The notes beneath the pieces are model-generated. The model was not told the origin of the DNA, did not search any database, and saw only the letters and a program-made list of their open reading frames with translations. This document shows positions 674 through 63,958 of a DNA stretch of 64,000 nucleotides, in pieces (positions within the stretch are counted from its first letter, which is position 1; each line of letters opens with the position of its first letter). Position numbers and translations under genes: made by a program. Origin of the DNA: a virus; IMG/VR virus record IMGVR_UViG_3300044984_000411, positions 1 to 64,000 of that record. One strand, 5' to 3'.

Positions 674-718
674 AAACCCTCTCTAGGTAGTATATACATT
701 ATACACCAACTAAAGAGG
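674..718 (-). promoter_or_regulatory. -10 box and possible RBS-sequestering stem before the 66-residue gene
   Basis: Minus-strand TATAAT at 698-703 preceded by GTG. CCCTCT near 712-717 is complementary to AGAGGG at 678-683, which is the Shine-Dalgarno of the gene starting at 669. The stem could alternatively be a weak terminator. Confidence 0.35.
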
Positions 719-726
719 GCTGTCAA

Positions 727-1181: not shown

Positions 1182-3623
1182 TTATATCCTCCTTCTTGTT
1201 GTTCCGCCTGAGCCACCTGATGGTGCTCCTGCTCCAGCTGCAGGGGCTGCTGCTGCTGTTAAAGCTGCTCCTGTTGCTGCGTTTACTGCTGCTCCAACTG
1301 CAACAACTGCTGTAACAACTATCTTCTTAGATTCTTCACGCACCTGTGGTGACATATCTGAACCTACGTTACCCATAAAGTTAAGGGCTTCTGTAAGTGC
1401 TACAACTGTTGCTCCAAGTACTGGAACAGCAGCCAATTCTTCATCTACTACGATGTCGTCAGCTTGGGCTACTAGGAATAAGGCATCAAGAGCCTGTTCA
1501 TATTCTGGTGAGCCTTGTGTTGCTGTCTCAAATGTTTCCATTGCTGCTTCTGTTAGTTGCTCTACCTGAGTTTCTGTTAGTTCTTCTGGTTTAACTGCCT
1601 CAAGATTTACGTCTGTAAGGTCTTCGATTACTTCTGGAATGTTTGGGTCTCCAATAGGTTCAGGGGTTGGTTCTGGCTCTGGTGTTGGAGTTGGTTCTGG
1701 GGTTGGGGTAGGCTTTGGCGGTTCTGTTGGTTCTGGGGTTGGTTCAATTACTGGCTCTTCATAAACTGGAATCTTCTTTAATTCCTCTTTTACTTTTTGT
1801 AGTAATTCATATTTTTCTGTCACTGCTTGTTGCTTTACGAAAACTCTTTGCTCAACTGCCTGTAGTTCCAGCCTAATAGTATTTGTTAACTGTGTGTTGT
1901 TTGATACTGCTATCTCTTGCTCTTCGACGGTAAGCTGTGTTTGCTCTTTAACTACCGCCTCTGCATCCAAAGTATCTTGAAGTTGATTTATAATCGTTGT
2001 ACTATCTTCAATTATAGCAACCATATTATCTAAACTATCTTTTAGTTCATTTAATTCCGATTGTTGTGTAGTTAATTGTAATTGTTTTTGTGCAACTTCC
2101 AGCTGTTTTTGTGCGTATTCTGTTTGTAAAGTTTCTAGAACTGACTGGGCTACCACAAGAAGTGAATCCAGTGTTAGCACTGTTCCATTCTTATCTATTT
2201 TATTTTGTTCCTTTTGTTCAAGAATGTCTTGCTTGCTTTGCCAATCTTCAATTGCAGCATCGTATTCGTCAATAGCGTCAACGTAATTGTCATTAGCTAC
2301 TGTCGAAGCTGTCATGGCAACGTCATACTCTTGCTGTGCATTTAAAAGTAGTGCTTGCTTTTGCTGCAAGATTGATAGTAGTGCTGGGTCATATTCATAA
2401 GTTGGCTGTGTAGGCTGATTCTGTGAAAGCCAGGCTGCAGGAACTACACCCCACCCTCTATCGGTATAGTAGTAAAGAATATTACAAGCTCCTCCACCCC
2501 ACTCAAACATCCATGCATCAATAGCGTATGATTGTCCTGCCTGTAGTGGCATAGGATTGCTCCAGTTACCGCCACACCCTTTTAGTGTCCAGTTATCATT
2601 TACGACCGTTCCACCAATTGTCATGTGCCAGCCATCGTCAACCATAGCAAGAAATTCGTAGTTGTCTGTAGTTGGGACCGTGAGGTATCCTCTGTAGTGA
2701 ATCATAACGTAGTCAGCACCACAACCCTCAATGTCTCCGCCACCCCAATCTTTGTTGATTTGAGTAACTGTTATTGTTTTACAAAACGTGTAGGCTGTAT
2801 CTGAGCGAATTGGATTTGGTGATGAAATTTGTTTATAAATATCTGCTTTTAACCCAGCAATGGTTGGCTGGGCGTTAGATGGATAAACTGCAATAAGGTT
2901 GTTGTTGTAGTTGTATTGTGCAGTATCTACAGCAGACTGTGCCTGTGTAAGATTGTTTAACTTAACTTGCAAGCTTGCTAGTGATTGATTGTATGCCACA
3001 GATGTGCTATCAACATTTGCACCCTTCTCGTGTACCGTTCCTACTGATAGGTTGTAGTTTAGCAATGCTACGTTATATTCGTTTACTGCTACGCTATAGT
3101 CTTGTTCTGACTGTTGTTTTTGGAGAGTTAAATCATTTAAAGATTCTTCAGAGTTTATCATGTCGGTAAATGCTTTGTCCATGTCTTGTGTGGCTTCATC
3201 TAGTTCTTGGGATGCTACAGTTACCTGCGAAGATTTTGCTAGGATGTCTTGAGAGATTTCTTCAAGTGCAGATTGCTTTTGTTCTACCAGGGCTTGTGCA
3301 TTGGCAAGGCTTTGCTGTGCTTCTGCGACTCTCTGAGACTGTGTATTATTAGCCTCAATTGCTACGTTAAGTGACGCTTGAGCATCCTCTAAAGCCTTCT
3401 GAGCGTCTCCTAGTGACGTTTCTGTGGCTGTCTTTGAGTTATTTAGGGCTACTAAGTCTTGCTGCTGTTGCTCTAGTTCTGCTTGTGCTGCATCAACTTT
3501 TTGCTGTGCTTCAGCAAGCAGTGTCTCGTACTCTGCTTTGGTTATACCAAATGCAGGACTAGACATCATCAGTGGGGTTAAAGCTAGCATTATTACTAGC
3601 ACTGTGTGTATAAGTTTTTTTAT
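1182..3623 (-). CDS. Large exported protein with coiled coils and a PA14-like domain; probable AUA start
   Basis: About 812 residues from AUA at 3623, or 806 from GTG at 3602. The AUA start gives the signal peptide MKKLIHTVLVIMLALTPLM..SSPAFG and lies 9 nt after AGGAG; the GTG start loses the positive N end and the spacing. Order: signal peptide; coiled coil rich in A, Q and E (about 25-230); a PA14-like beta domain (about 275-400, with GYLTVPTTDNYEFLAMVDDG and paired Cys); second coiled coil (about 410-630); a Pro/Thr/Glu spacer; an acidic helical part; a hydrophobic Ala/Gly C-terminal stretch ending in Arg. PA14 domains often bind carbohydrate. It may be a surface or periplasm-spanning protein made late; function unknown. 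Confidence 0.7.
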   Translation of the reverse strand: MKKLIHTVLVIMLALTPLMMSSPAFGITKAEYETLLAEAQQKVDAAQAELEQQQQDLVALNNSKTATETSLGDAQKALEDAQASLNVAIEANNTQSQRVAEAQQSLANAQALVEQKQSALEEISQDILAKSSQVTVASQELDEATQDMDKAFTDMINSEESLNDLTLQKQQSEQDYSVAVNEYNVALLNYNLSVGTVHEKGANVDSTSVAYNQSLASLQVKLNNLTQAQSAVDTAQYNYNNNLIAVYPSNAQPTIAGLKADIYKQISSPNPIRSDTAYTFCKTITVTQINKDWGGGDIEGCGADYVMIHYRGYLTVPTTDNYEFLAMVDDGWHMTIGGTVVNDNWTLKGCGGNWSNPMPLQAGQSYAIDAWMFEWGGGACNILYYYTDRGWGVVPAAWLSQNQPTQPTYEYDPALLSILQQKQALLLNAQQEYDVAMTASTVANDNYVDAIDEYDAAIEDWQSKQDILEQKEQNKIDKNGTVLTLDSLLVVAQSVLETLQTEYAQKQLEVAQKQLQLTTQQSELNELKDSLDNMVAIIEDSTTIINQLQDTLDAEAVVKEQTQLTVEEQEIAVSNNTQLTNTIRLELQAVEQRVFVKQQAVTEKYELLQKVKEELKKIPVYEEPVIEPTPEPTEPPKPTPTPEPTPTPEPEPTPEPIGDPNIPEVIEDLTDVNLEAVKPEELTETQVEQLTEAAMETFETATQGSPEYEQALDALFLVAQADDIVVDEELAAVPVLGATVVALTEALNFMGNVGSDMSPQVREESKKIVVTAVVAVGAAVNAATGAALTAAAAPAAGAGAPSGGSGGTTRRRI

Positions 3624-6441: not shown

Positions 6442-6680
6442 TACTTACTCTCTCCCTGTAGTCGTTTAATCTCGTCTTGGATGTAAAAGATAGCTTTCTC
6501 TAAATCTTGAATAGTCTTTTTCTCGTCTTTGAGTCCTGCTCGCCAAAGATATTTGAATGCGTTACCAACATTAAAGTTGCGGTGTCTAGTAATTTGAATA
6601 CACTCAACACCGCTGGGGTCAGAGGTATAGTGTGGTGGGTGGTTTACTTGGTCTACTGTAATCTTTAGGTTGTCGCTCAT
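6441..6680 (-). CDS. DUF3310 family protein
   Basis: 79 residues. The DUF3310 signature is clear: VNHPPHYT near the N end, then GVECIQITRH, FKYLWRAGLKD and DLEKAIFYIQDEI. These proteins are common in phage nucleotide and DNA-metabolism regions and are often labelled nucleotide kinase-like without biochemical proof. ATG at 6680 overlaps the stop of the next upstream gene. Confidence 0.8.
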   Translation of the reverse strand: MSDNLKITVDQVNHPPHYTSDPSGVECIQITRHRNFNVGNAFKYLWRAGLKDEKKTIQDLEKAIFYIQDEIKRLQGESK

Positions 6681-6832
6681 CTTTTTGATTTCCTTAATCC
6701 GAACTTGGCTAGATAGACGTAGATTGTTTCCACGCTAGTACCGCATTCTTTTGCAATCTCTTGTGGTGTTTTTTTATCGGCATGGAAGCGTTTCTTTAAC
6801 CATGCTTCACTAGTATACAGTTTATTTGCCAT
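6677..6832 (-). CDS. Small helix-turn-helix protein
   Basis: 51 residues from ATG at 6832, which lies just after the stop of the RuvC-like gene; longer ORF versions would overlap that gene. The sequence AWLKKRFHADKKTPQEIAKECGTSVETIYVYLAKFGL is a trihelical HTH of the sigma-4/homeodomain-like type. Basic C end (RKSKR). It is probably a small transcriptional regulator or DNA-bending protein; target unknown. Confidence 0.65.
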   Translation of the reverse strand: MANKLYTSEAWLKKRFHADKKTPQEIAKECGTSVETIYVYLAKFGLRKSKR

Positions 6833-6836
6833 AATG

Positions 6837-7412
6837 TCAATACCCAAATGCCTTTTCCCAGTTTGATAGTGCCCAGTGTCCGATTGCACAAGCATCCGCA
6901 ACATCATCATCTGTTAGTTCTTTGTCATAGTTTATATTAACAAAGTTGATTGTTCTCTGCTTACGAATGGAGCGTTCTTCATTTTTAAACCAAGACACAG
7001 ACTTGCCAGGATTCTTCTTAGCAATCTCTGCCTTTTCTTCTTTGGTTAGTTTCTTGTTACCAATAAAGTTCTGCCATGTCATTGGAGATACGGAACCGAT
7101 TCTCTTTACCCCAGCCATTCCTGCAGCCCCTAGCAATGCTCCCTGCAGCGTAGCAAGCTGTGCTGCTGTCTTAGGGCTGTTCATAAATACCGTGTGCTCA
7201 ATAATAACTGCATCAAAATCAAACTTATCAAAGAAGGCTTTTGTCTTCTTGGCAGCATCCATTACCTTATCGAAGGTTGTAACGCCAGCAAAGTTAATCT
7301 TGCCACAAGCAATAATCTTTTTGCCATCAAATACAGCAAATGCCAGGCTATTTGTGCTAGCGTCAATAGCACAGAACTTCTTTGGTTTCTCTTTTAGCTT
7401 ACTTAGATTCAT
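6837..7412 (-). CDS. RuvC-like Holliday junction resolvase
   Basis: 191 residues with RNase H-fold resolvase signatures: CAIDASTNSLAFAVFD (first Asp), VIIEHTVFM (Glu), the SPMTWQNFIG segment, and DDDVADACAIGHWAL (C-terminal acidic pair). It is expected to cut branched DNA before packaging or during recombination. It overlaps the zinc-finger gene by 14 nt; AAGGA precedes the ATG. Somewhat longer than bacterial RuvC. Confidence 0.8.
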   Translation of the reverse strand: MNLSKLKEKPKKFCAIDASTNSLAFAVFDGKKIIACGKINFAGVTTFDKVMDAAKKTKAFFDKFDFDAVIIEHTVFMNSPKTAAQLATLQGALLGAAGMAGVKRIGSVSPMTWQNFIGNKKLTKEEKAEIAKKNPGKSVSWFKNEERSIRKQRTINFVNINYDKELTDDDVADACAIGHWALSNWEKAFGY

Positions 7413-17573: not shown

Positions 17574-18095
17574 TTAAATTTCTTCGTTCCAAACAGGAAT
17601 GAAGCGACCATCTTCGGTCCTTGTATAAGTAAGTATACCATCACCCATACGCCTTGTCAACTCCTGTTTAGTGGGAGTTATATCATTGGTAATCAGCTTA
17701 TCTTTGCGTGGTTGTCCAATGTGGTAGGTAGCTAGTATATCACGAATTTCGTGAACCTGCAACTCAGAGTAATAGCTTCTGACTTGCCATCCAGTTGCCC
17801 CACCTTTTTGGCTTCCTGTTGGATGTGGAATAATACCACGTTTCATTAGACTTGGCATATACTTCTTATGTCGGTTTACTAGTATTGCTGTTTCCCCAAC
17901 TGTATAGGCTTTCTTTCGATTGCGTTTAAAGTCTGTAACCAGACAGCTTTCAAGCCTATCTTTATTTATGTTATAAACTGACATAATTCCATTAGAACGG
18001 TTTAGATGATGTATTCTCACTAGGTCTCCGTTTAAAAACCAAACCTTTTTGCTACCTGGAATTACTGGAGCATTGTTATATGCCTCTCTGTCCAT
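17574..18095 (-). CDS. HTH-like protein, unknown function
   Basis: 173 residues. A small basic beta domain (KKVWFLNGDLVRIHHLNRSNGIMSVYN) is followed by a MerR/excisionase-like winged helix: AYTVGETAILVNRHKKYMPSLMKRGIIPHPTGS...GWQVRSYYSE. It lies at the head of the replication genes, just after the tail genes, and could regulate them. Probable DNA binding; target unknown. Confidence 0.6.
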   Translation of the reverse strand: MDREAYNNAPVIPGSKKVWFLNGDLVRIHHLNRSNGIMSVYNINKDRLESCLVTDFKRNRKKAYTVGETAILVNRHKKYMPSLMKRGIIPHPTGSQKGGATGWQVRSYYSELQVHEIRDILATYHIGQPRKDKLITNDITPTKQELTRRMGDGILTYTRTEDGRFIPVWNEEI

Positions 18096-55295: not shown

Positions 55296-55301
55296 ATTAT
55301 A
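55296..55301 (-). promoter_or_regulatory. -10 box before the glycosyltransferase gene
   Basis: Minus-strand CTG-TATAAT overlapping the stop codon of the collagen-like gene, 22 nt before the GTG at 55273. Confidence 0.4.
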
Positions 55302-57717
55302 CAGTACCGCCATCGATTGATGGCAAAGAAATTGTTTTTGTAGTTGGGTCATATGATAATGGTGGACTAGCCACAAGAATTCCAGACGGTCCTGTTGGAC
55401 CAGTTGCTCCAGTAGGTCCTGTTACTGTGCTTGCTGCTCCTGTTGGTCCTGTGGGACCAGTATTACCATTTGGACCTGTGGGTCCAATTGCTCCTGTAGG
55501 TCCCAGCTGGGTGTACATAACCTGTACTGCGGTAAGAATAATTGAAGGTGTTGCTGGAGATGTTGGGGACGTTCTTGCTGGCAAAGACTCTACCCTAAGT
55601 TGTGTGCTTGAGCCAGACCAGTAAACTTGCACTTGCTGTCCTGCTGTTGCAGTTGCAACATAGTTAATTGTTACTATTTGTCGGTTAGGCTCATCTGATG
55701 ACTTACGTGGCTGCATATCTATTTCAGTAGCAGAATCGGGATAGTCGACGTTATTTGTTTTTAGCCAGAAAATTCCTTTTTCAACAGAGTTAGCATAGTT
55801 GGTAAGTTGGATAGAAAATGTAAGGCTATAGGTTCCAGCATAAGCAAAGGTAACTTCGTCACCGTTTTGAATACTCACACCGCTTGATTCGGATGTGGAC
55901 CCAATTGCAATAACTTGAGCTACAGAAGTAGATACGAGTGGTTGGTCGGTCATGTCGTAGAACGAACCGTAATAGCCTAGTGTTCCACCTGCCCCAGTAG
56001 TTCCTTGTGGACCTGTTGGTCCAGTTGCACCTGTAGGACCAGTAGGACCAGTAGGTCCTGTGACTGTAGAGGCAGCTCCTGTAGCACCTGTAGGTCCTGT
56101 TGCTCCAGTTGGACCAGTTGGTCCTTGTGAGCCAGTAGAACCTGTAGAGCCAGTAGGTCCAGTTGCACCAATTGAGCCTTGTGGACCTGTAGGTCCTGTT
56201 GCTCCAGTAGCTCCAATAGGTCCTGTGGGACCAGTGGCACCGTCTAATCCGTTAGTTCCATTTGTTCCTGCTGGACCTGTCGGTCCTGTAACAGTTGATG
56301 CAGAACCTTGTGGACCTGTTGGACCCAATGGACCTGTAGGTCCTGTGGGACCAGTAGGTCCTGTGGGACCAGTAGGACCTGTAACAGTTGACGCTGCTCC
56401 TGTGGGTCCTGTTGGACCTGTTGGACCTATAGAGCCTTGTGAGCCTGTGCTACCTGTAGGACCTGTTGGTCCTTGTGCTCCTGTAGTTCCTGTGCTACCA
56501 GTTGGTCCTGTCGCACCTTGAGACCCTGTAGGTCCAGTTATGGTTGAGGCAGCTCCTTGTGGTCCTGTAGCTCCTGTAGGACCTGTAGGTCCCTGAATTC
56601 CAGTAGGTCCAGTAACAGTTGACGCTGCTCCCTGTGGACCAGTTGGACCAGTTGGACCTAGCGGTCCTGTTGGACCAGTAACTGTAGATGCAGCACCTGT
56701 AGGACCAGTGAGACCGATGTCTCCAGTTCTAGCAAAGTCAAGAACGATGCCAGAGCCAGGGGTAAGTCCAGAAATACTTCCAGAAACATAGTTAACAGGA
56801 ATCTTATAATACCCACTATCGGCAATTACAGTTCCGCTAATTGCAAATACTAAAATCTGTCCAGAAGAACCAGAGGCTGATTGAAAAATTAAGTTTCCTT
56901 TGATTGCTGAAGAAGAATCATCAAATGTGTCGTACCATCCAGTCATAGATACGCTATTTGCATTTGTATTGTCAATAAAAATTTGAGAGATAGATGCTGG
57001 AACTGAATTGTTAAATCTTACATACCCTGTTCCTGGGTCAGCATCTACTGTGTTATTTGAATAAAAATATGGGACACCTGCACGTTTACCTTCTGGTCCA
57101 GTGCTTCCTGTTGGACCCTGAAATCCTTCTGGTCCTGTTGGTCCTTGTGGACCTGTACTGCCAGTAGGTCCTGTTACTGTGCTTGCTGCTCCTTGAGGTC
57201 CAGTAGAACCAGTTGGACCCAGACTTCCTGTAGGACCTAGCGGTCCTGTAGGACCTTGGATGCCTTGTGGACCTGTAGGTCCTGTAGGACCAGTAGGTCC
57301 TGTCACAGTAGAAGCAGGACCAGTTGAGCCTGTAGGTCCTGTAGGACCAGCCACACCTGTAGGACCAAGGTTTCCCTGTGGACCTGTTGAGCCTGTGGCT
57401 CCAGTTGGACCTATGGGTCCTTGGCTTCCTGTTGGTCCTGTGACTGTGGACGCAGGTCCTGTTGAACCAGTTGGTCCAGTTGGTCCTTGCGGTCCAGTTG
57501 GTCCACTAAGAACCATACCAGGTGCTGGAATGATTTTGATTGTGTCAGATGTTTGGGTTTGATTGATTATCTTAATGGTGGGGGCATCAGGAGCAATTGC
57601 TTTGACAACCACCTCTATATTATTTACAGGAACTATCTTAACAACCTCTGCAGGGTTTGTAGTTGCAATTACTTCTACAGTACCTGCTGGGCTACTGGTT
57701 ACTTTTACTGTTGACAT
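55297..57717 (-). CDS. Collagen-like fibre protein
   Basis: 806 residues. A beta N end (about 1-70) is followed by three runs of Gly-X-Y repeats, mostly GPT/GPQ/GST, at about 73-215, 336-580 and 735-780. The unit (A/S)STVTGPTG recurs about ten times. Two globular inserts separate the runs (about 216-335 and 580-735; the second, with [20 protein letters not shown], looks like a C1q/TNF-type jelly roll). It probably forms a trimeric fibre; Thr-rich Y positions could be glycosylated by the neighbour enzyme. Confidence 0.8.
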
Positions 57718-58798: not shown

Positions 58799-59005
58799 AT
58801 GAAAGATAACGGCGATGTCGAATTTTTAGACCTTTTTGACCCTAACCAACAAAAAGCAGACAGAGAACTAGTAGAGTCTCGTTTAGCAATTTGTAATACG
58901 TGTCCCTGGTTTGCCAAAAATTTGAAAAGATGTCGCAAATGTGGTTGTTTTATGAGATTGAAGACTACCCTTGTTCAAGCTAAGTGTCCTGTAGGACATT
59001 GGTAA
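58799..59005 (+). CDS. Cys-rich zinc-binding protein
   Basis: 68 residues. An acidic N part (GDVEFLDLFDPNQQKADRE) and a Cys cluster CNTCPWF...RCRKCGCFM...KCPVGHW. The same pattern is widespread in phages, including cyanophages; its role is not known to me. Leaderless by the -10 position. Confidence 0.75.
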   Translation: MKDNGDVEFLDLFDPNQQKADRELVESRLAICNTCPWFAKNLKRCRKCGCFMRLKTTLVQAKCPVGHW

Positions 59006-59299: not shown

Positions 59300-59315
59300 A
59301 TAACGAATTGGTAAC
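59300..59315 (+). repeat. Phased TAAC repeats (cassette a)
   Basis: ATAAC (59300) and GTAAC (59311), start to start 11 bp, about 30 bp before promoter a. The rest of 59169-59394 holds AAATCTGA repeats but no gene. Confidence 0.5.
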
Positions 59316-59344
59316 ATTGCAAAAATGTTTGTTGAAATGAACCA

Positions 59345-59369
59345 AAATGTCTCCCCTATCGTATAGACT
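59345..59369 (+). promoter_or_regulatory. Right-arm promoter a
   Basis: AAA-TGTCTC, 10 bp, TAGACT. Drives the gene at 59395, which has GAAGGAG. Confidence 0.7.
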
Positions 59370-59394
59370 TTAGATAACAAAGAAGGAGCAACAA

Positions 59395-59619
59395 ATGACC
59401 AGCATCGAGATTCTAATCGCAAGTTACTCAGTAGTATTCGTAGGCTTCGCTCTACTGTATGCAATCGCTTTGCCTATCTCTCTAGCACTTGAGTCAGTCG
59501 GCAAGCGTATCGCTAACAAGCGTTCAGTTGCATACCGCCTAGCAAACCAGTGTAAAGGTATCACCAAAAAGGGTGAGCAATGCCTAAACTGGTTAGACTG
59601 CCCTCACCACAGCAACTAA
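59395..59619 (+). CDS. Membrane protein with a C-terminal zinc-like Cys/His motif
   Basis: 74 residues. A long membrane helix (SYSVVFVGFALLYAIALPISLAL), a basic stretch, then CKGITKKGEQCLNWLDCPHH. The Cys/His end resembles small phage and plant-type knuckles binding one zinc. Function unknown. GAAGGAG precedes the ATG. Confidence 0.65.
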   Translation: MTSIEILIASYSVVFVGFALLYAIALPISLALESVGKRIANKRSVAYRLANQCKGITKKGEQCLNWLDCPHHSN

Positions 59620-59620
59620 G

Positions 59621-59670
59621 CGACACGCCCAATGAATGGACTTGACAAATCCAGGATTTTGGGGGCACCC
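59621..59670 (+). repeat. GC-rich hairpin repeat, divergent copy 1
   Basis: CGACACGCCC at one end and GGGGGCACCC at the other, with TGGA-cttgacaaa-TCCA in the middle. Sits right after a stop codon. Confidence 0.55.
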
Positions 59671-59675
59671 ATTTT

Positions 59676-59691
59676 GTTACCAAACTGTTAC
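59676..59691 (+). repeat. Phased TAAC repeats (cassette b, inverted)
   Basis: GTTAC at 59676 and 59687, start to start 11 bp. Confidence 0.5.
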
Positions 59692-59716
59692 ATAAGATAT
59701 ACGTCAAAACTTCCCT

Positions 59717-59741
59717 AAATGTCTGTCCTATCCTGTAGACT
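59717..59741 (+). promoter_or_regulatory. Right-arm promoter b, leaderless
   Basis: AAA-TGTCTG, 10 bp, TAGACT; six bases later the ATG at 59748. Confidence 0.75.
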
Positions 59742-59747
59742 ATAGCC

Positions 59748-59816
59748 ATGAACGAAAACGAAGACTACTCAGCAGAAAACCCTTGTGACGACATCGATTG
59801 CCTATGGTGTAACTAA
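59748..59816 (+). CDS. 22-residue acidic Cys-containing peptide
   Basis: MNENEDYSAENPCDDIDCLW plus Cys-Asn. Very acidic with three Cys (CxxxxC, CxxC-like). Leaderless from promoter b. Its stop shares an A with the next start (TAATG), supporting both as genes. Confidence 0.5.
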   Translation: MNENEDYSAENPCDDIDCLWCN

Positions 59817-59926
59817 TGCGTAACCTAATGGATGACTTGACCATTGTGATAATGGTTACCCTCGCTAGTGTGCTAGTGCTAGGCAGCGTTAGCCTACTAC
59901 TATGGGCAGCAGGGCTTATCCCCTAG
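59816..59926 (+). CDS. 36-residue membrane peptide
   Basis: One membrane helix (TIVIMVTLASVLVLGSVSLLL) after MRNLMDDL. Translationally coupled to the 22-residue peptide. No family known. Confidence 0.55.
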   Translation: MRNLMDDLTIVIMVTLASVLVLGSVSLLLWAAGLIP

Positions 59927-59935
59927 GGCTACCAG

Positions 59936-59966
59936 GGCGACACGCCCGACAGCGTGGGGGTGCCCC
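59936..59966 (+). repeat. GC-rich hairpin repeat, copy 2
   Basis: GGGCGACACGCCCGACAGCG followed by TGGGGGTGCCCC. CACGC/GCGTG inner stem and GGGC/GCCC outer stem. A second GACACGCC is at 59990-59997 and an inverted GGCGTGT at 60042-60048. Confidence 0.7.
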
Positions 59967-60056
59967 AAAATCTGGGCTTTTGTCAATACGACACGCCGTT
60001 AAGTTTGATAACAATTTTCCCCCAAATCGTTACATTTATTTGGCGTGTTTGGTAAT

Positions 60057-60081
60057 AAATGTCTGTGCTATGGTATAGACT
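60057..60081 (+). promoter_or_regulatory. Right-arm promoter c
   Basis: AAA-TGTCTG, 10 bp, TAGACT; gene start at 60112. Confidence 0.7.
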
Positions 60082-60111
60082 GATAACAACAAGGAAGCAA
60101 AGGACAGAAAA

Positions 60112-60282
60112 ATGACAGTAGACCTAGAGTATGTAGCAAACCTAGTAGCACAGTTGAACGCAGACAAGATTGAGCGTGATAACATAGCACTTGCCGATGC
60201 AATGACTCCTGAGCAATACCCAGACTGCAACCAGTGTGGAGCGGTTATCGATGACTCATTCGGTTGCTACTTTTGTGACTAA
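60112..60282 (+). CDS. 56-residue zinc-ribbon protein
   Basis: Helical N part (TVDLEYVANLVAQLNADKIERD) and a C-terminal CNQCGAVID...CYFC ribbon. AAGGA lies upstream. Its TAA is part of the AAATGTCC box of promoter d. Confidence 0.65.
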   Translation: MTVDLEYVANLVAQLNADKIERDNIALADAMTPEQYPDCNQCGAVIDDSFGCYFCD

Positions 60283-60305
60283 ATGTCCGTGGCTAATGCT
60301 AAACT
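60281..60305 (+). promoter_or_regulatory. Right-arm promoter d
   Basis: AAA-TGTCCG, 10 bp, TGC-TAAACT. Overlaps the preceding stop codon. Confidence 0.75.
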
Positions 60306-60329
60306 AAAAACATCAAGAAAGGATAACTA

Positions 60330-60467
60330 ATGTTTGTTTGTGTATTTTGTGAGAGAACCTTCAACCTCGCTCCACACTCTTGCCCTAACTGCAATGACTA
60401 CAAAGGGCTAATGACTATTGCTGATGCGGTTGCTGAGTATGACTGGTTAGACTACTTAGTAGCCTAG
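60330..60467 (+). CDS. 45-residue zinc-ribbon protein
   Basis: Starts MFVCVFCERTFNLAPHSCPN and continues CNDYKGL: two CxxC knuckles, then an acidic helix (DAVAEYDWLDYLV). GAAAGGA precedes the ATG. Function unknown. Confidence 0.65.
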   Translation: MFVCVFCERTFNLAPHSCPNCNDYKGLMTIADAVAEYDWLDYLVA

Positions 60468-60482
60468 CCTATCCGCTACCCT

Positions 60483-60511
60483 GGCGACACGCCCGACAGC
60501 GTGGGGGCACC
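60483..60511 (+). repeat. GC-rich hairpin repeat, copy 3
   Basis: GGCGACACGCCCGACAGCG then TGGGGGCACC; the inverted word GGCGTGTCG is at 60574-60582, just before promoter e. Confidence 0.7.
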
Positions 60512-60514
60512 GCC

Positions 60515-60535
60515 TGTGGATAACTCTGTGGATAA
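60515..60535 (+). other. Pair of DnaA boxes
   Basis: TGTGGATAA at 60515-60523 and 60527-60535, both perfect, 12 bp apart as at 58213/58225. Confidence 0.65.
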
Positions 60536-60589
60536 CTGCGTTATGTAACTGTTATAAAAACCCCCAACTTTTTGGCGTGTCGTGTAGAT

Positions 60590-60614
60590 AAATGTCTGGC
60601 GTGTGTGATAGGTT
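60590..60614 (+). promoter_or_regulatory. Right-arm promoter e, leaderless
   Basis: AAA-TGTCTG, 10 bp, TAGGTT; six bases later the ATG at 60621. Confidence 0.7.
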
Positions 60615-60620
60615 ATAGGT

Positions 60621-60734
60621 ATGGAAAGAAAAGCAGAAATGGGTTGGGCAGGGCTAGCCCTTGCTCTATCTATCGTTATCGTAATCGCTACCGCTGTAGT
60701 CTCAGGCTTGGCTTGGGCTAGCGGTCTAATCTAA
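60621..60734 (+). CDS. 37-residue membrane peptide
   Basis: MERKAEMGWAGLALALSIVI continues as one hydrophobic helix ending SGLAWASGLI. Leaderless from promoter e; next gene follows at 9 nt in the same transcript. No family known. Confidence 0.6.
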   Translation: MERKAEMGWAGLALALSIVIVIATAVVSGLAWASGLI

Positions 60735-60743
60735 GGAAACAAA

Positions 60744-60887
60744 ATGAACGCTGTAATCAACGCAACCCTAACCCTTTCTCTAGCGAAAGAAAACCTAGAG
60801 AAACTAATCGCTATGGGTCTTGATACTGATGAAGACTATGACCAAGTGTATTGGGCAGAGCAAGAGCTAAAGCGTCTCTCTCGCTAA
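60744..60887 (+). CDS. 47-residue helical protein, paralogue of the gene at 62182
   Basis: LSLAKENLEKLIAMGLDTDE then DYDQVYWAEQELKRL. Aligns end to end, same length, with the 62182 product (LDLAIENLGKLIALGIDTPE). Two helices; function unknown. AAGGAAAC before the ATG. Confidence 0.7.
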   Translation: MNAVINATLTLSLAKENLEKLIAMGLDTDEDYDQVYWAEQELKRLSR

Positions 60888-60897
60888 TACCCCACCA

Positions 60898-60927
60898 GGG
60901 CGACACGCCCGACAGCGTGGGGTGCCC
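60898..60927 (+). repeat. GC-rich hairpin repeat, copy 4
   Basis: GGGCGACACGCCCGACAGCG then TGGGGTGCCC; inner CACGC/GCGTG and outer GGGC/GCCC stems. Confidence 0.7.
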
Positions 60928-60946
60928 TTCGAACAGAATTTCGAAT

Positions 60947-60962
60947 GTAACACTTACGTAAC
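60947..60962 (+). repeat. Phased TAAC repeats (cassette f)
   Basis: GTAAC at 60947 and 60958, start to start 11 bp. Confidence 0.55.
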
Positions 60963-60991
60963 GAATTAAATTTCTCCCAAATTTTTTGCCA

Positions 60992-61016
60992 AAATGTCTG
61001 TGCAAACTGATAGTCT
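60992..61016 (+). promoter_or_regulatory. Right-arm promoter f, leaderless
   Basis: AAA-TGTCTG, 10 bp, TAGTCT; six bases later the ATG at 61023. Confidence 0.75.
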
Positions 61017-61022
61017 ATACCT

Positions 61023-61379
61023 ATGAAAACCTGCAAAGAATGCCTAGCCACCAAGCCCCTCGCTGACTTCTCTAAGGCTAGTGGTGGCAACTACTACCGA
61101 ACCGAGTGCAAGGCTTGCTCTAACGCTATGACCAAAGAGCGTAATGCTCTACGCAAGCAGTATGGTATGCCTAACGCTGGCTACGCTTGCCCTATCTGCC
61201 AGAGAGTAGAGAACGAGATTGTTGGTGAGGGCGGTAACGCTGGTGCTTGGGTTCTTGACCACGACCACGCTTCTGGTGAGTTTCGTGGTTGGCTATGCCA
61301 CAAGTGCAATCGTGGTCTGGGAGCATTTGAAGACCAACTGCCACGCCTATTGCGAGCAATCGAATACTTATCAAAGTAG
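61023..61379 (+). CDS. Endonuclease VII-like HNH nuclease
   Basis: 118 residues, the longest right-arm gene. KTCKECLATKPLADF and CKACS give one Cys pair; ACPICQR...WVLDHDHASGEFRGWLCHKCN is the endonuclease VII/HNH core with the catalytic DHDH and zinc Cys. T4 endonuclease VII resolves branched DNA; some relatives are homing or host-attacking nucleases. Leaderless from promoter f. Confidence 0.88.
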   Translation: MKTCKECLATKPLADFSKASGGNYYRTECKACSNAMTKERNALRKQYGMPNAGYACPICQRVENEIVGEGGNAGAWVLDHDHASGEFRGWLCHKCNRGLGAFEDQLPRLLRAIEYLSK

Positions 61380-61429
61380 CGACACGCCGATGCCAGAGCT
61401 TGACAAACCTGGCAAAATCGGGGCACCCC
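61379..61429 (+). repeat. GC-rich hairpin repeat, divergent copy 5
   Basis: GCGACACGCC then TGCCAG-N12-CTGGCA, ending TCGGGGCACCCC. The loop keeps CTTGACAAA as in copy 1. Confidence 0.6.
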
Positions 61430-61433
61430 AAAA

Positions 61434-61461
61434 ATAACGAAATGGTAACGATTTACGTAAC
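61434..61461 (+). repeat. Phased TAAC repeats (cassette g)
   Basis: ATAAC 61434, GTAAC 61445, GTAAC 61457: spacings 11 and 12 bp. Confidence 0.65.
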
Positions 61462-61478
61462 ACGATTATTTTCTCCCA

Positions 61479-61503
61479 AAATGTCTGACCTGTCTGATAG
61501 ACT
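61479..61503 (+). promoter_or_regulatory. Right-arm promoter g, leaderless
   Basis: AAA-TGTCTG, 10 bp, TAGACT; six bases later the ATG at 61510. Confidence 0.75.
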
Positions 61504-61509
61504 GCAGGT

Positions 61510-61635
61510 ATGCAAATCGAAATCATCACCCCAGAGGGTCGCTCCGCTATCATCCCTAACACCGAAGCCAACTTGCGTTGGGCAAAGAAACTTTTTGCTC
61601 AGGGCTTTCTTCAGTCTTGGGAAATCCTAAAGTAA
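61510..61635 (+). CDS. 41-residue protein, unknown function
   Basis: MQIEIITPEGRSAIIPNTEA then NLRWAKKLFAQGFLQSWEIL: a short beta hairpin and a helix. Leaderless from promoter g. Its TAA contributes to the A run of promoter h. Confidence 0.55.
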   Translation: MQIEIITPEGRSAIIPNTEANLRWAKKLFAQGFLQSWEILK

Positions 61636-61659
61636 AATGTCCGCCCCCTATGCTAAACT
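61635..61659 (+). promoter_or_regulatory. Right-arm promoter h
   Basis: AAA-TGTCCG, 10 bp, TGC-TAAACT; gene start at 61683. Confidence 0.7.
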
Positions 61660-61682
61660 CAAACCAATCGAAAGGTAACAAA

Positions 61683-61841
61683 ATGGAAACAGCACTAGCA
61701 GACTTGACCCTAAAGCAAGCAAAACTAAAACTCAACTCACTCGTTCGTGAAGCCGAGAACCTTGACTACCTCTCACACGCAGAACTAGATTTTATGCTAG
61801 CCCTCGTTCGCCACATCCAGAAACTAGGGGGAACGGTCTAA
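61683..61841 (+). CDS. 52-residue helical protein
   Basis: METALADLTLKQAKLKLNSL then VREAENLDYLSHAELDFMLA and a third helix: a small all-alpha protein. GAAAGGTAAC before the ATG. An upstream in-frame extension is excluded because promoter h lies inside it. Function unknown. Confidence 0.65.
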   Translation: METALADLTLKQAKLKLNSLVREAENLDYLSHAELDFMLALVRHIQKLGGTV

Positions 61842-61864
61842 ATGTCTGTGGTCATTGGTAGCCT
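61840..61864 (+). promoter_or_regulatory. Right-arm promoter i
   Basis: AAA-TGTCTG, 10 bp, TGG-TAGCCT. Fused to the preceding stop; its ATG opens a 19-codon frame. Confidence 0.65.
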
Positions 61865-61901
61865 AATCCTAATCGCTCTTATCGCTCTCTTCAATCAGTA
61901 A
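61842..61901 (+). CDS. 19-residue hydrophobic peptide read through the promoter box
   Basis: MSVVIGSLILIALIALFNQ, a single membrane helix, opens at the ATG inside the AAATGTCTG box, one base after the preceding TAA. AGGGGG is about 10 nt upstream. Could be real (coupled to the previous gene) or chance. Confidence 0.35.
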   Translation: MSVVIGSLILIALIALFNQ

Positions 61902-61910
61902 AGGAAAAAA

Positions 61911-62033
61911 ATGTCACCTACACTTTCTTGGATTCTATTCCTCTCAATGGGCTGGGCTACTTATGCTTGGTATAAGTCAATGGTCATCAAGTCACTAGAG
62001 GAGGAGTTGGAACGGAATAAGCCACCGTTCTAG
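61911..62033 (+). CDS. 40-residue membrane peptide
   Basis: MSPTLSWILFLSMGWATYAW then a charged tail (KSLEEELERNKPPF). One membrane helix. AAGGAAAA before the ATG. Transcribed from promoter i. No family known. Confidence 0.6.
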   Translation: MSPTLSWILFLSMGWATYAWYKSMVIKSLEEELERNKPPF

Positions 62034-62042
62034 CTCTACCCT

Positions 62043-62072
62043 GGCGACACGCCCGACAGCGTGGGGTGCCCC
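62043..62072 (+). repeat. GC-rich hairpin repeat, copy 6
   Basis: GGCGACACGCCCGACAGCG then TGGGGTGCCCC, directly followed by TAAC repeats. Confidence 0.7.
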
Positions 62073-62074
62073 CG

Positions 62075-62102
62075 ATAACGTTTTGGTAACGGTTTAAGTA
62101 AC
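62075..62102 (+). repeat. Phased TAAC repeats (cassette j)
   Basis: ATAAC 62075, GTAAC 62086, GTAAC 62098: spacings 11 and 12 bp. Confidence 0.65.
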
Positions 62103-62131
62103 AAGCCAAAAAACCCCCTGTTTTGGTAAAT

Positions 62132-62156
62132 AAATGTCCGTGGTTCGTGTTACCTT
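62132..62156 (+). promoter_or_regulatory. Right-arm promoter j
   Basis: AAA-TGTCCG, 10 bp, TGT-TACCTT; gene start at 62182. Confidence 0.7.
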
Positions 62157-62181
62157 ATAGGTAGACAGAAAGAAGGAATAA

Positions 62182-62325
62182 ATGAAGAAAGCACTTGACG
62201 CAAAACTAGCCCTAGACCTAGCCATTGAGAACCTAGGCAAACTAATCGCCCTAGGCATTGACACGCCTGAAGACTATGACGAGGTTCACTGGCTTCAGTT
62301 TCAGTTTGACAAACTAAATAAATAA
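62182..62325 (+). CDS. 47-residue helical protein, paralogue of the gene at 60744
   Basis: MKKALDAKLALDLAIENLGK then LIALGIDTPEDYDEVHWLQF. Same length and order of helices as the 60744 product, with conserved ENLxKLIAxGxDTxEDYDxVxW. AGAAGGA before the ATG. The stop TAA overlaps promoter k. Confidence 0.7.
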   Translation: MKKALDAKLALDLAIENLGKLIALGIDTPEDYDEVHWLQFQFDKLNK

Positions 62326-62348
62326 ATGTCTGTGGCATCCGCTAAACT
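62324..62348 (+). promoter_or_regulatory. Right-arm promoter k
   Basis: AAA-TGTCTG, 10 bp, CGC-TAAACT; fused to the preceding stop. Confidence 0.7.
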
Positions 62349-62377
62349 GTAAGTAACCAAAAGAAATGAGAAATGAA

Positions 62378-62533
62378 ATGACCGAAACCCCAACTCTAAC
62401 CCAACTCGTTGAATACGCAATGGAACGCTATGGCTTCAACATCGATACCGCTTACATTTATGTTGCTGGTTCGTTGTTTGCCGTAGCGGACGATGAGGGT
62501 AAGCAGTTGGTTGCCAGAGCAATGGGCAAATAA
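62378..62533 (+). CDS. 51-residue protein, unknown function
   Basis: TPTLTQLVEYAMERYGFNID then TAYIYVAGSLFAVADDEGKQ: helix, strand pair, helix. Only a weak ribosome site (GAGAAATGA). No family recognised. Confidence 0.55.
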   Translation: MTETPTLTQLVEYAMERYGFNIDTAYIYVAGSLFAVADDEGKQLVARAMGK

Positions 62534-62549
62534 GTTTTAGGGGTAGCAA

Positions 62550-62590
62550 GAGCCTAGCAAATAATCCGTAATGGTGAGCCTAGCAAATAA
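62550..62590 (+). repeat. 15-bp direct repeat GAGCCTAGCAAATAA
   Basis: Copies at 62550-62564 and 62576-62590, 26 bp apart, the second running into promoter l. No GC-rich hairpin copy is found in this spacer. Confidence 0.6.
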
Positions 62591-62613
62591 ATGTCTGCCC
62601 CTAATGGTAACCT
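62589..62613 (+). promoter_or_regulatory. Right-arm promoter l
   Basis: AAA-TGTCTG, 10 bp, TGG-TAACCT; gene start at 62641. Confidence 0.7.
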
Positions 62614-62640
62614 GTAACTACAAACAAGAAAGGGCAACTA

Positions 62641-62808
62641 ATGCCAAAACCAAGAATGACCAAAAGCGAAAAGGTTTTTATGGATGAACTTCACCCTATA
62701 ATCTGGCACAAGGGAGCAACTACCCTTGCCGAAAGCGAAACCTATAAGCAACTGCCTGAAGCGGTTAGACAGGCTTACCTTCAGTTGCTAATCACCAAGA
62801 CACGATAG
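62641..62808 (+). CDS. 55-residue protein, unknown function
   Basis: MPKPRMTKSEKVFMDELHPI then IWHKGATTLAESETYKQLPE and a C helix. Basic N end. GAAAGGGCAA before the ATG. Its stop is followed at once by a DnaA box. Confidence 0.6.
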   Translation: MPKPRMTKSEKVFMDELHPIIWHKGATTLAESETYKQLPEAVRQAYLQLLITKTR

Positions 62809-62838
62809 TTATCCACAGGGTAGCGAAAGTTATCCACA
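62809..62838 (+). other. Pair of DnaA boxes
   Basis: TTATCCACA at 62809-62817 and 62830-62838, both perfect, 21 bp apart, opposite in orientation to the other two pairs. Confidence 0.65.
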
Positions 62839-62850
62839 GGGGGCACCCCA
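62837..62850 (+). repeat. GC-rich hairpin repeat, right half only (copy 8)
   Basis: GGGGGCACCCC remains; the GACACGCC half is replaced by the DnaA boxes. Confidence 0.5.
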
Positions 62851-62851
62851 G

Positions 62852-62879
62852 GTAACGATTTGGTAACAGTTTACGTTAC
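62852..62879 (+). repeat. Phased TAAC repeats (cassette m)
   Basis: GTAAC 62852, GTAAC 62863, GTTAC 62875: spacings 11 and 12 bp. Confidence 0.65.
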
Positions 62880-62886
62880 CGATTAA

Positions 62887-62943
62887 AAATGTCCCGAAAT
62901 GTCTCCCAAAATAATAATAAATGTCTGAGGTGGCTGTTAGACT
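62887..62943 (+). promoter_or_regulatory. Right-arm promoter m with two extra upstream boxes
   Basis: The promoter is AAA-TGTCTG (62919), 10 bp, TAGACT (62938-62943). Two more AAATGTC boxes have TGTC at 62890 and 62900 and no -10 of their own. Confidence 0.65.
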
Positions 62944-62974
62944 TACTTCGTAAGTTGATTGATTGGAGTTCCCC

Positions 62975-63208
62975 TTGACCCTTAGCCCAAACCTGCTCTT
63001 TGTGAGCCAGACCATCCAGACCTACCCCACCTTTGCCCAAGCCTACGCAGACGGCAAGAACATCAAAAACTTTGGCTTATGCGAACACTTTCAGGTTGCT
63101 CGCCGTTTTTCTAACTCTGGCATTGTCTATCGCCTGACCCTGCTGAACAAGAATGAAGCAACCTACAACACCCTTGACCTATCACCAAACTACCCAAACG
63201 CTAACTAA
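62975..63208 (+). CDS. 77-residue protein, unknown function
   Basis: TTG start at 62975 with GGAG 6 nt upstream; the TTG at 62963 overlaps that site. LSPNLLFVSQTIQTYPTFAQ, AYADGKNIKNFGLCEHFQVA, RFSNSGIVYRLTLLNKNEAT: a mixed alpha/beta protein, no family recognised. Confidence 0.6.
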   Translation: MTLSPNLLFVSQTIQTYPTFAQAYADGKNIKNFGLCEHFQVARRFSNSGIVYRLTLLNKNEATYNTLDLSPNYPNAN

Positions 63209-63217
63209 GGAGAACCT

Positions 63218-63355
63218 ATGCCAAGCATCAAACTAACCAAAGACGAGAGCCGTATTCACGAGTGCCAACTCTGTGGCGGTTCTGCCAAGTTTTATCTTGT
63301 TCGCAAGATTGCTCCCTCAATGTTTTTGTGTGGACTTTGCGTTCGCCCTGCCTAG
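63218..63355 (+). CDS. 45-residue zinc-ribbon protein
   Basis: CQLCGGSAKFYLVRKIAPSM then FLCGLCVRPA: two CxxC knuckles about 20 residues apart. AAGGAGA before the ATG; second gene after promoter m. Confidence 0.65.
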   Translation: MPSIKLTKDESRIHECQLCGGSAKFYLVRKIAPSMFLCGLCVRPA

Positions 63356-63361
63356 CAGGTA

Positions 63362-63385
63362 GCGACACGCCAGGGGGGGCACCCC
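63362..63385 (+). repeat. GC-rich hairpin repeat, shortened copy 7
   Basis: GCGACACGCC joined directly to GGGGGGGCACCCC; the central CGACAGCGTG is lost. Confidence 0.6.
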
Positions 63386-63390
63386 GATTC

Positions 63391-63406
63391 GTTACCAAAA
63401 CGTTAT
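63391..63406 (+). repeat. Phased TAAC repeats (cassette n, inverted)
   Basis: GTTAC 63391 and GTTAT 63402, 11 bp apart. Confidence 0.5.
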
Positions 63407-63431
63407 TAAATAGGTTTAAGACTATTCCCCA

Positions 63432-63456
63432 AAATGTCTGTGGGTCTTGTTATACT
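63432..63456 (+). promoter_or_regulatory. Right-arm promoter n
   Basis: AAA-TGTCTG, 10 bp, TGT-TATACT; gene start at 63483. Confidence 0.75.
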
Positions 63457-63482
63457 TGGGGTATTCACGAAAGGACATCTCT

Positions 63483-63641
63483 ATGGACACCTCTAACCTT
63501 TACTACGGCGACGACTTCGGCTACTTTGAGGAGGAAGAACTCACTCCAGAGGAACGCAAAGCCGAAGACAAGGCTTGGATGCAACAGCAGTTGCAAGAAG
63601 CCTACGCAGAGTTCCTAGACGCTCCTAACTGCTTCGACTGA
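63483..63641 (+). CDS. 52-residue very acidic protein
   Basis: MDTSNLYYGDDFGYFEEEEL then TPEERKAEDKAWMQQQLQEA. Strongly acidic N part and one helix, like small anti-restriction or DNA-mimic proteins in charge only. GAAAGGA before the ATG at 63483; a longer in-frame start lies inside promoter n. An overlapping 118-residue frame is a shadow. Confidence 0.65.
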   Translation: MDTSNLYYGDDFGYFEEEELTPEERKAEDKAWMQQQLQEAYAEFLDAPNCFD

Positions 63642-63650
63642 GGCAGGGAG

Positions 63651-63665
63651 CTGGGGGCACCCCGA
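63651..63665 (+). repeat. GC-rich hairpin repeat, right half only (copy 9)
   Basis: CTGGGGGCACCCCG before TAAC repeats; the GACACGCC half is missing. Confidence 0.45.
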
Positions 63666-63693
63666 ATAACGGTTTGATAACACTTTACGTAGT
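63666..63693 (+). repeat. Phased TAAC repeats (cassette o)
   Basis: ATAAC 63666, ATAAC 63677, degenerate GTAGT 63689: spacings 11 and 12 bp. Confidence 0.55.
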
Positions 63694-63713
63694 GTATTAA
63701 AAAGCACCCGAAT

Positions 63714-63738
63714 AAATGTCTGTGGCTAATGCTAAAAT
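63714..63738 (+). promoter_or_regulatory. Right-arm promoter o
   Basis: AAA-TGTCTG, 10 bp, TGC-TAAAAT; gene start at 63762. Confidence 0.75.
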
Positions 63739-63761
63739 GTAACTACAACGAAAGGATAACT

Positions 63762-63935
63762 ATGCGAAACACAATGAACATTTATGTAGTCGAAATGGAC
63801 AACGGCTCTACCCTTGAGATTGAGGCTCCACTAGAGAACGAGGTTCAACTAGATTGGCTCATTGACGCATACTACAAAGGTCGTATCGCTCGCTTTTGGG
63901 TAAATGGCGTTGAGTGGCAAGAGCCTACAGAATAA
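63762..63935 (+). CDS. 57-residue protein, unknown function
   Basis: MNIYVVEMDNGSTLEIEAPL then QLDWLIDAYYKGRIARFWVN: strands, helix, strand. ATG at 63762 has GAAAGGATAAC upstream; a longer in-frame start lies within promoter o. The stop TAA merges with promoter p. Confidence 0.65.
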   Translation: MRNTMNIYVVEMDNGSTLEIEAPLENEVQLDWLIDAYYKGRIARFWVNGVEWQEPTE

Positions 63936-63958
63936 ATGTCTGTAGGTATTGGTAAACT
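63934..63958 (+). promoter_or_regulatory. Right-arm promoter p
   Basis: AAA-TGTCTG, 10 bp, TGG-TAAACT; fused to the preceding stop. Confidence 0.75.

Follow-up and report, generated by a model that had tools for sequence, protein, structure and literature searches.

The right arm of this phage raises the question of whether a short, regularly spaced sequence repeated before its array of tiny genes is a promoter and, if so, what reads it. We analysed a window of 64,000 nucleotides (positions 1 to 64,000 of IMG/VR record IMGVR_UViG_3300044984_000411), in which an earlier note had described 16 copies of AAATGTCYG or a close variant, followed after exactly 10 bp by TANNNT. We found this observation to be correct. 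All 16 sites match TGTC-N12-TANNNT on the + strand between 59348 and 63958, at every position that the note had listed; AAATGTC is invariant in 16/16 and AAATGTCYG is present in 15/16, the first site being AAATGTCTC. When the gap between AATGTC[CT][CG] and TANNNT was varied from 0 to 24 bp, 16 sites were found at 10 bp and none at 8, 9, 11 or 12 bp. TG at −15/−14 is present in 12 of 16 sites. The sites, which we call class-A promoters, are as follows, with transcription start sites (TSS) predicted from sequence alone:

59345..59369 (+), promoter 1 (AAATGTC box, N10, TAGACT); predicted TSS 59376; gene 59395-59619
59717..59741 (+), promoter 2; predicted TSS 59748, the A of an ATG (leaderless, 22 aa ORF)
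60057..60081 (+), promoter 3; predicted TSS 60088; gene 60112-60282
60281..60305 (+), promoter 4, overlapping the stop codon of the gene before; predicted TSS 60312; gene 60330-60467
60590..60614 (+), promoter 5; predicted TSS 60621, the A of an ATG (leaderless, 37 aa ORF)
60992..61016 (+), promoter 6; predicted TSS 61023, the A of an ATG (leaderless, 118 aa endonuclease VII-like gene)
61479..61503 (+), promoter 7; predicted TSS 61510, the A of an ATG (leaderless, 41 aa ORF)
61635..61659 (+), promoter 8; predicted TSS 61666; gene 61683-61841
61840..61864 (+), promoter 9; predicted TSS 61871; gene 61911-62033
62132..62156 (+), promoter 10; predicted TSS 62163; gene 62182-62325
62324..62348 (+), promoter 11; predicted TSS 62355; gene 62378-62533
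62589..62613 (+), promoter 12; predicted TSS 62620; gene 62641-62808
62919..62943 (+), promoter 13; predicted TSS 62950 (G); gene 62975-63208
63432..63456 (+), promoter 14; predicted TSS 63463; gene 63483-63641
63714..63738 (+), promoter 15; predicted TSS 63745; gene 63762-63935
63934..63958 (+), promoter 16; predicted TSS 63965; gene runs off the window

We then compared these counts to dinucleotide shuffles of the arm (n = 2000), a comparison which had been proposed beforehand as a way to refute the observation. The strict motif occurred at a mean of 0.0035 (maximum 1) in the shuffles against 16 observed, and even the loose TGTC-N12-TANNNT gave a mean of only 0.26 (maximum 4), so chance was rejected. 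It should be noted that the loose pattern over the whole window is only about twofold above shuffles (26 against 12), indicating that the arm is the signal. Outside the arm, AATGTC-N12-TANNNT occurs only 3 times in 59 kb, scattered over both strands. Recent duplication of one cassette was also rejected, as the 10-bp spacer and the flanks vary while the box and the −10 do not. The contig ends at 64306, probably inside the array, as the sister phage G010 continues for another ~11 kb.

The element was under-described in the earlier note, which had placed the box at around −31 to −23. The conserved sequence continues to −20 (GG or CC at −21/−20), there is a YA start signature and a second repeat lies upstream of 9 sites. 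Transcription is predicted to start 7 bp after the −10, with Y at −1 in 16/16 and A at +1 in 15/16 sites; four genes in the window have an ATG exactly there. In 183 unique sites from 15 related contigs, Y was found at −1 in 94% and A at +1 in 89%. Across 1200 unique related sites ATG peaked at +1 (n = 73) and +2 (n = 51), compared to 3 at each of −3 to 0 and 2 at +4. These data support the elements being promoters with a sigma-70-type −10.

The class is not private to this phage. We found 301 stretches of viral contigs carrying 1517 sites on one strand versus 25 on the other, in several deep lineages related to Streptomyces Stanwilliamsviridae; together these carriers are a large, mostly uncultured group of viruses that infect Actinobacteria. 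The consensus is wAATGTCnGWSS followed by TGnTAnaAT. TGTC is nearly invariant, while the two As tolerate T. The gap between box and −10 was 10 bp in 155 sites and 8, 9 or 11 bp in none; among boxes which were not used to find the contigs, 174 lay 10 bp from TATAAT and 0 at 9 or 11 bp. In a portal tree built to ask whether the array had one origin, the lineages with the array were deep and their base was unresolved, so one origin is not ruled out. Literature searches, which did not cover most subscription journals, found no report of the motif.

No −35 signal was found at −36 to −32, and a sigma-70 scan of the arm found no more matches than in shuffles. The TTGACA-like −35 at 16-18 bp from the −10 which characterises ordinary sigma-70/sigma-A promoters is therefore lacking, and only 12 composite TTGACAATGTC sites were found among 1694. 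However, ordinary TTGACA-N17-TANNNT promoters coexist in the same genomes, some of them conserved in place, indicating that normal −35s are used elsewhere in this phage:

17632..17660 (−), ordinary sigma-70-type promoter TTGACA-N17-TATACT, conserved in place in G010, G011 and G009
698..726 (−), ordinary TTGACA-N17-TATAAT promoter, conserved in G010, where it lies about 3.3 kb upstream of whiB on the same strand

Cultured Stanwilliamsviridae and Rhodococcus relatives have 0-1 class-A sites and 9-37 TTGACA sites. The small-gene arrays of the Streptomyces Stanwilliamsviridae Faust and Samisti12 are an orthologous gene block (DUF932 anchor) with many single-gene promoters, a −10 of the form TAGACT and the same gene order of the divergent structural operon, but their promoters have a −35-like element (TTGACA, TAGACA, both seen in the DUF932 array of Samisti12) 17-18 bp from the −10 and no TGTC box.

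Nine of the promoters in the window also carry an upstream repeat, RTAAC-N6-RTAAC, found in either orientation:

59300..59315 (+), upstream repeat (GlnR-box-like), 46 bp before the AATGTC of promoter 1
59676..59691 (−), same element reversed (GTTAY-N6-GTTAY), promoter 2
60540..60555 (−), reversed repeat, promoter 5
60947..60962 (+), repeat, promoter 6
61434..61449 (+), repeat, promoter 7
62075..62090 (+), repeat, promoter 10
62852..62867 (+), repeat, promoter 13
63391..63406 (−), reversed repeat, promoter 14
63666..63681 (+), repeat, promoter 15

This repeat fits the GlnR box consensus GTnAC-n6-GTnAC (PMC10704036). Spacing 6 was strongly preferred in the arrays, with 75 occurrences against about 3 at most other spacings and 17 at spacing 7. 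Binding by GlnR or a relative (MtrA, PhoP) would be an inference from this sequence only.

The earlier note had interpreted the box as a site for a phage activator or sigma-appropriating factor, comparable in logic to T4 MotA promoters or mycobacteriophage start-associated repeats but with a different sequence, and this interpretation is supported only in part. That it is a promoter class, that the box replaces the −35, that the logic is close to T4 middle promoters and that the sequence differs from the MotA box are all supported. Binding of the box by a phage activator or sigma-appropriating factor is instead inferred from the rigid spacing, the absence of a −35, the coexistence of ordinary −35/−10 promoters in the same genomes and the restriction to one phage group. 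As in T4 middle promoters, where MotA acts with AsiA, the host −10 is kept, TGn is present in many sites, a single asymmetric box near −30 starts with A/T and then TG, and ordinary promoters (early promoters in T4) are found in the same genome. In contrast to the MotA box, (a/t)3TGCTTtA at 12 ± 1 bp from the −10 (PMC2988021), the box reads AATGTCnGWSS, lies about 3 bp closer to the −10 at one fixed distance and has a strict TGTC core where MotA tolerates changes, in a phage of actinobacterial type. The MotA C-terminal domain (PF09158) was absent from 7 genomes or contigs at E ≤ 1, although a remote homologue could be missed. The comparison with the start-associated sequences of cluster K mycobacteriophages fails. 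These are also repeated, asymmetric, in one orientation and before many small non-structural genes, but they read GGGATAGGAGCCC, lie 3-7 bp before start codons and are proposed to act in translation (PMC3203893), whereas this box lies 20-31 bp upstream of the predicted transcript start.

We consider it likely, though not certain, that the 16 elements are one class of activator-dependent, MotA-like promoter. In this view, host RNA polymerase with its housekeeping sigma factor would contact the −10 (TGnTAnaAT) and start at a YA 7 bp downstream, while an additional, as yet unidentified protein would read AATGTCnGWSS at −30 to −20, held so rigidly against the polymerase that the distance to the −10 cannot change by even one base pair. 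The class would turn on a block of small genes separately from the structural and replication genes, which would use ordinary TTGACA/TATAAT promoters. Most likely the extra protein is encoded by the phage and works by sigma appropriation, as MotA with AsiA does in T4, with a phage WhiB bound to sigma-A region 4 as the best guess for the AsiA-like part. The element, its spacing, its start-site signature, its conservation and its distribution are shown by the sequences, while the extra factor, its phage origin, the timing and the role of WhiB are inferred.

Two candidate proteins were found. A phage WhiB is encoded in 16/16 family genomes over 100 kb, although it lies outside the contig of this window, and WhiB proteins bind sigma-A region 4 (PMC10245118, PMC3905903). 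WhiB is an analogue candidate only; known WhiB7-type sites of Actinobacteria lie at or upstream of the −35 and not in the spacer, and the tail of the phage WhiB shows no AT-hook. The second candidate is in the window:

6677..6832 (−), 51-aa helix-turn-helix protein, found in 15 of 16 array genomes over 100 kb and also as Faust gp77

This protein was reached through one of several sub-threshold hits in a search for a phage sigma factor, in which no sigma region 4 passed the cut-off. It should be noted that both WhiB and the helix-turn-helix protein also occur in Streptomyces relatives which lack the box, so neither explains it alone. An array-core protein of 143 aa (G010 6687-7115) was considered as the box reader, but its confident structural model, a long helix plus beta hairpin, had no PDB match at E ≤ 0.001.

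A more speculative reading, which we regard as tentative, is a sigma-appropriation system of its own kind, evolved in actinophages, in which a phage WhiB on sigma-A region 4 displaces −35 recognition and a separate phage protein reads the TGTC box in the −30 to −20 spacer, partly through the minor groove (TGG/ACC at −22 to −20). Such a system would be universal in an abundant uncultured phage group and combined with a host nitrogen- or phosphate-type regulator at the upstream repeat. Phage takeover of actinobacterial RNA polymerase is poorly known, and WhiB is the most abundant regulator in actinophages, yet its role in the phage cycle is called enigmatic (PMC8612146). While a box in place of the −35 is already known from T4, the class described here provides over a thousand natural promoter variants with predicted start sites, a strict consensus and two small candidate proteins, which makes the question open to testing in vitro without the uncultured host, as well as a simple DNA signature for recognising this phage group in metagenomes.

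The best surviving alternative, though we think it unlikely, is that the box is read by a host protein, either an alternative sigma factor or a host regulator, to which the phages simply adapted their array. The host being unknown leaves room for this, and the GlnR-like repeat suggests that host regulators may act at these promoters. However, a scan of 84,980 bacterial and archaeal species with one form of the box gave 28 matches, scattered over many phyla and with no actinobacterial cluster. The class is restricted, as far as seen, to one phage group: 41 of 50 sampled records carry its portal and most of the others are fragments. The −10 is also of the housekeeping type, and 12 bp between AATGTC and TANNNT is too short for a normal sigma −35/−10 pair.

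It is very unlikely that the box is a repressor operator which silences all array promoters together until the repressor is removed, the promoters being otherwise ordinary extended −10 promoters. TGn is common (12/16 here, and G at −14 in 71% of 1200 sites), extended −10 promoters can work without a −35, and the stoperators of L5-like phages are a known array of repeated regulatory sites (PMC3203893). However, an operator need not keep one exact distance to the −10, to which there were 0 exceptions among hundreds of sites, and a sizeable minority of sites lack TG and would then have neither a −35 nor an extended −10. No integrase or immunity repressor was noticed in a search that was not exhaustive. 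Direct reading of the box as a spacer element by host RNA polymerase, with no extra protein, is the weakest explanation, as although the WSS step at −22 to −20 tolerates base-pair flips (TGG or ACC), as expected of shape or minor-groove reading, the TGTC core is read strictly, no holoenzyme contact is known to read bases at −28 to −25 in this way and the ordinary promoters of the same phages lack the box.

We also examined smaller features of the arrays. Tandem boxes with helical spacing, considered near 62890-62922, were not seen across 190 sites. GC-rich hairpins before the promoters were considered as terminators but were not more stable than shuffles. A start codon inside the box (ATGTC) was rejected as its function because the box lies upstream of the predicted transcript start; one short frame beginning in the box at 61842 is open in G010 too, and remains only a curiosity.

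We read the 16 sites directly and found that each lies at the position recorded for it in the earlier note, whose observation of a promoter-like element with invariant spacing in the right arm therefore held. AAATGTC is invariant and the gap from AAATGTCYG to TANNNT is 10 bp in every case. When the gap was varied from 0 to 24 bp, 16 matches were found at 10 bp and at most 3 at any other distance, and in 2000 dinucleotide-preserving shuffles of the arm the strict motif was found 0.0035 times on average. The rest of the window contained three scattered matches. The contig ends at 64306 and the array very likely runs on, as the sister phage G010, whose 127-bp end overlap suggests a complete genome of about 92.8 kb, has about 27 sites over 15 kb on one strand.

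After aligning the 16 sites on TGTC we found, besides the box and the -10, an A in 15/16 sites at the base 7 bp after the last T of the -10 and a pyrimidine in 16/16 at the base before it, which is the usual YA start. Four genes in the window (59748, 60621, 61023 and 61510) have an ATG with the A exactly at that base, as expected of leaderless actinobacterial genes. In 1200 unique related sites ATG was found 73 times at +1 and 51 times at +2, but 3 times at each position from -3 to 0 and twice at +4, with a second broad peak at +19 to +28 for genes with a leader. It should be noted that these are sequence signatures and not measured transcripts; however, they are independent of the box and fix the geometry, with the box at -31 to -20 and the -10 at -12 to -7.

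The window is a virus record, and its portal, capsid and polymerase are 41-57% identical to those of Streptomyces Stanwilliamsviridae, with a divergent gene order beside the array similar to that in the Streptomyces phage Faust. We scanned IMG/VR with one form of the element and with three other forms and recovered at least 301 further stretches, containing 1517 sites on the major strand and 25 on the other. Of 50 sampled records, 41 have the family's portal at 49-74% identity. In a portal tree these form several deep lineages, as far apart as the Streptomyces ones, with an unresolved base. Whole records of 100 kb or more carry mostly 8-22 sites on one strand, compared with 0-2 for a reversed-pattern control.

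The consensus from the 1200 unique sites, 849 of which match none of the search patterns, was w A A T G T C n G W S S followed by T G n T A n a A T. In a scan anchored on TATAAT rather than on the box, the two As tolerated T but TGTC hardly varied. At -22 to -20 the sites most often read ACC or TGG, in about equal numbers; these differ by flipping each base pair, which is what minor-groove or shape reading would allow. No strong conservation was found at -36 to -32. The spacing is extreme: many of these contigs are related and counts are therefore not independent events, but among 1192 boxes which were not used for retrieval TATAAT follows at 10 bp 174 times and at 9 or 11 bp never.

Ordinary TTGACA-N17-TANNNT matches occur in the same genomes, including 3 in the window, 6 in G010, and 15 and 10 in the related G011 and G009 respectively, and some are conserved in place, for example that at window 17632-17660. 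Cultured relatives have 9-37 such matches and 0-1 matches to the box-containing class (class A). The orthologous leftward array of the Streptomyces phage Samisti12, anchored by the DUF932 gene, has TAGACA- or TTGACA-like -35s and TAGACT -10s. In 12 of 1694 array sites (position 8135 of the contig G025, position 83129 of G011 and ten others) the box is fused to a -35 as TTGACAATGTC with both distances right, giving composite promoters of the form TTGACAATGTC-N12-TANNNT, so both inputs can serve one start. A host polymerase which needs the box for every promoter is therefore unlikely, and an added factor for the array is the natural reading.

We also looked for the origin of such a factor. A scan of 84,980 bacterial and archaeal species with a single form of the box found 28 scattered matches and no clade, which, within that limit, speaks against a common host promoter. 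WhiB is encoded by 16 of 16 family records of 100 kb or more, by G007, G009, G010, G011 and G018 and by Faust; its position in G010 (77.5 kb) lies just beyond the part that this contig covers. WhiB proteins bind sigma-A region 4 (PMC10245118, PMC3905903), so a WhiB could free the polymerase from -35 recognition as AsiA does, but because Streptomyces relatives have WhiB without the box, a second, box-reading protein is probably needed. A 51-aa HTH protein (window 6677-6832, minus strand) is present in 15 of those 16 records, again with a Faust homologue, although nothing in our analysis links either protein to the box. An ordinary TTGACA-N17-TATACT promoter match (window 6812-6840, minus strand) overlaps the start codon of the HTH gene, and G011 keeps the 17-bp spacer although its N-terminus has one residue fewer. 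An array-core protein of unknown family (G010 6687-7115, minus strand), with relatives in 149 contigs, gave a confident model with a predicted long helix, beta hairpin and C-terminal helices, for which no PDB match was found.

These results indicate a real and widespread promoter class, unreported in the libraries searched, which works like T4 middle promoters but is not a member of them. The earlier note's interpretation, that the box is a site for a phage activator or sigma-appropriating factor comparable in logic to T4 MotA promoters, is partly supported. The element, its spacing and its start signature were read from sequence and make the promoter reading near certain, whereas a dedicated phage factor is inferred and likely, with its identity, any part played by WhiB and any minor-groove reading being inference only.

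A second repeat, RTAAC-N6-RTAAC in either orientation, lies 42-68 bp before the AATGTC box of 9 of the 16 window promoters (nine places within 59300-63681), these being the promoters which open a transcription unit after a non-coding gap. Spacing 6 was found 75 times in the arrays against about 3 for most other spacings (17 at spacing 7), and the distance to the box peaks at 40-50 bp in the wider set. The repeat is also above background outside the arrays. It matches the GlnR box GTnAC-n6-GTnAC (PMC10704036); however, the related regulator MtrA also binds direct repeats (PMC5650626), so the match alone does not identify a binder.

A further repeated sequence, GGCGACACGCCCGACAGCGTGGGG(T)GCCCC, was found in the gaps between genes at window 59923-59966, 60470-60513, 60886-60929 and 62030-62073, and was not more stable than shuffles as an RNA hairpin. 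Other features of the window were as follows:
58799-59005, a 68-aa cysteine-rich zinc-finger-like protein just before the array, without a class-A promoter
55297-57717 (minus strand), a collagen-repeat protein, probably a virion adhesion part
1182-3602 (minus strand), a PA14-domain protein, probably a virion adhesion part
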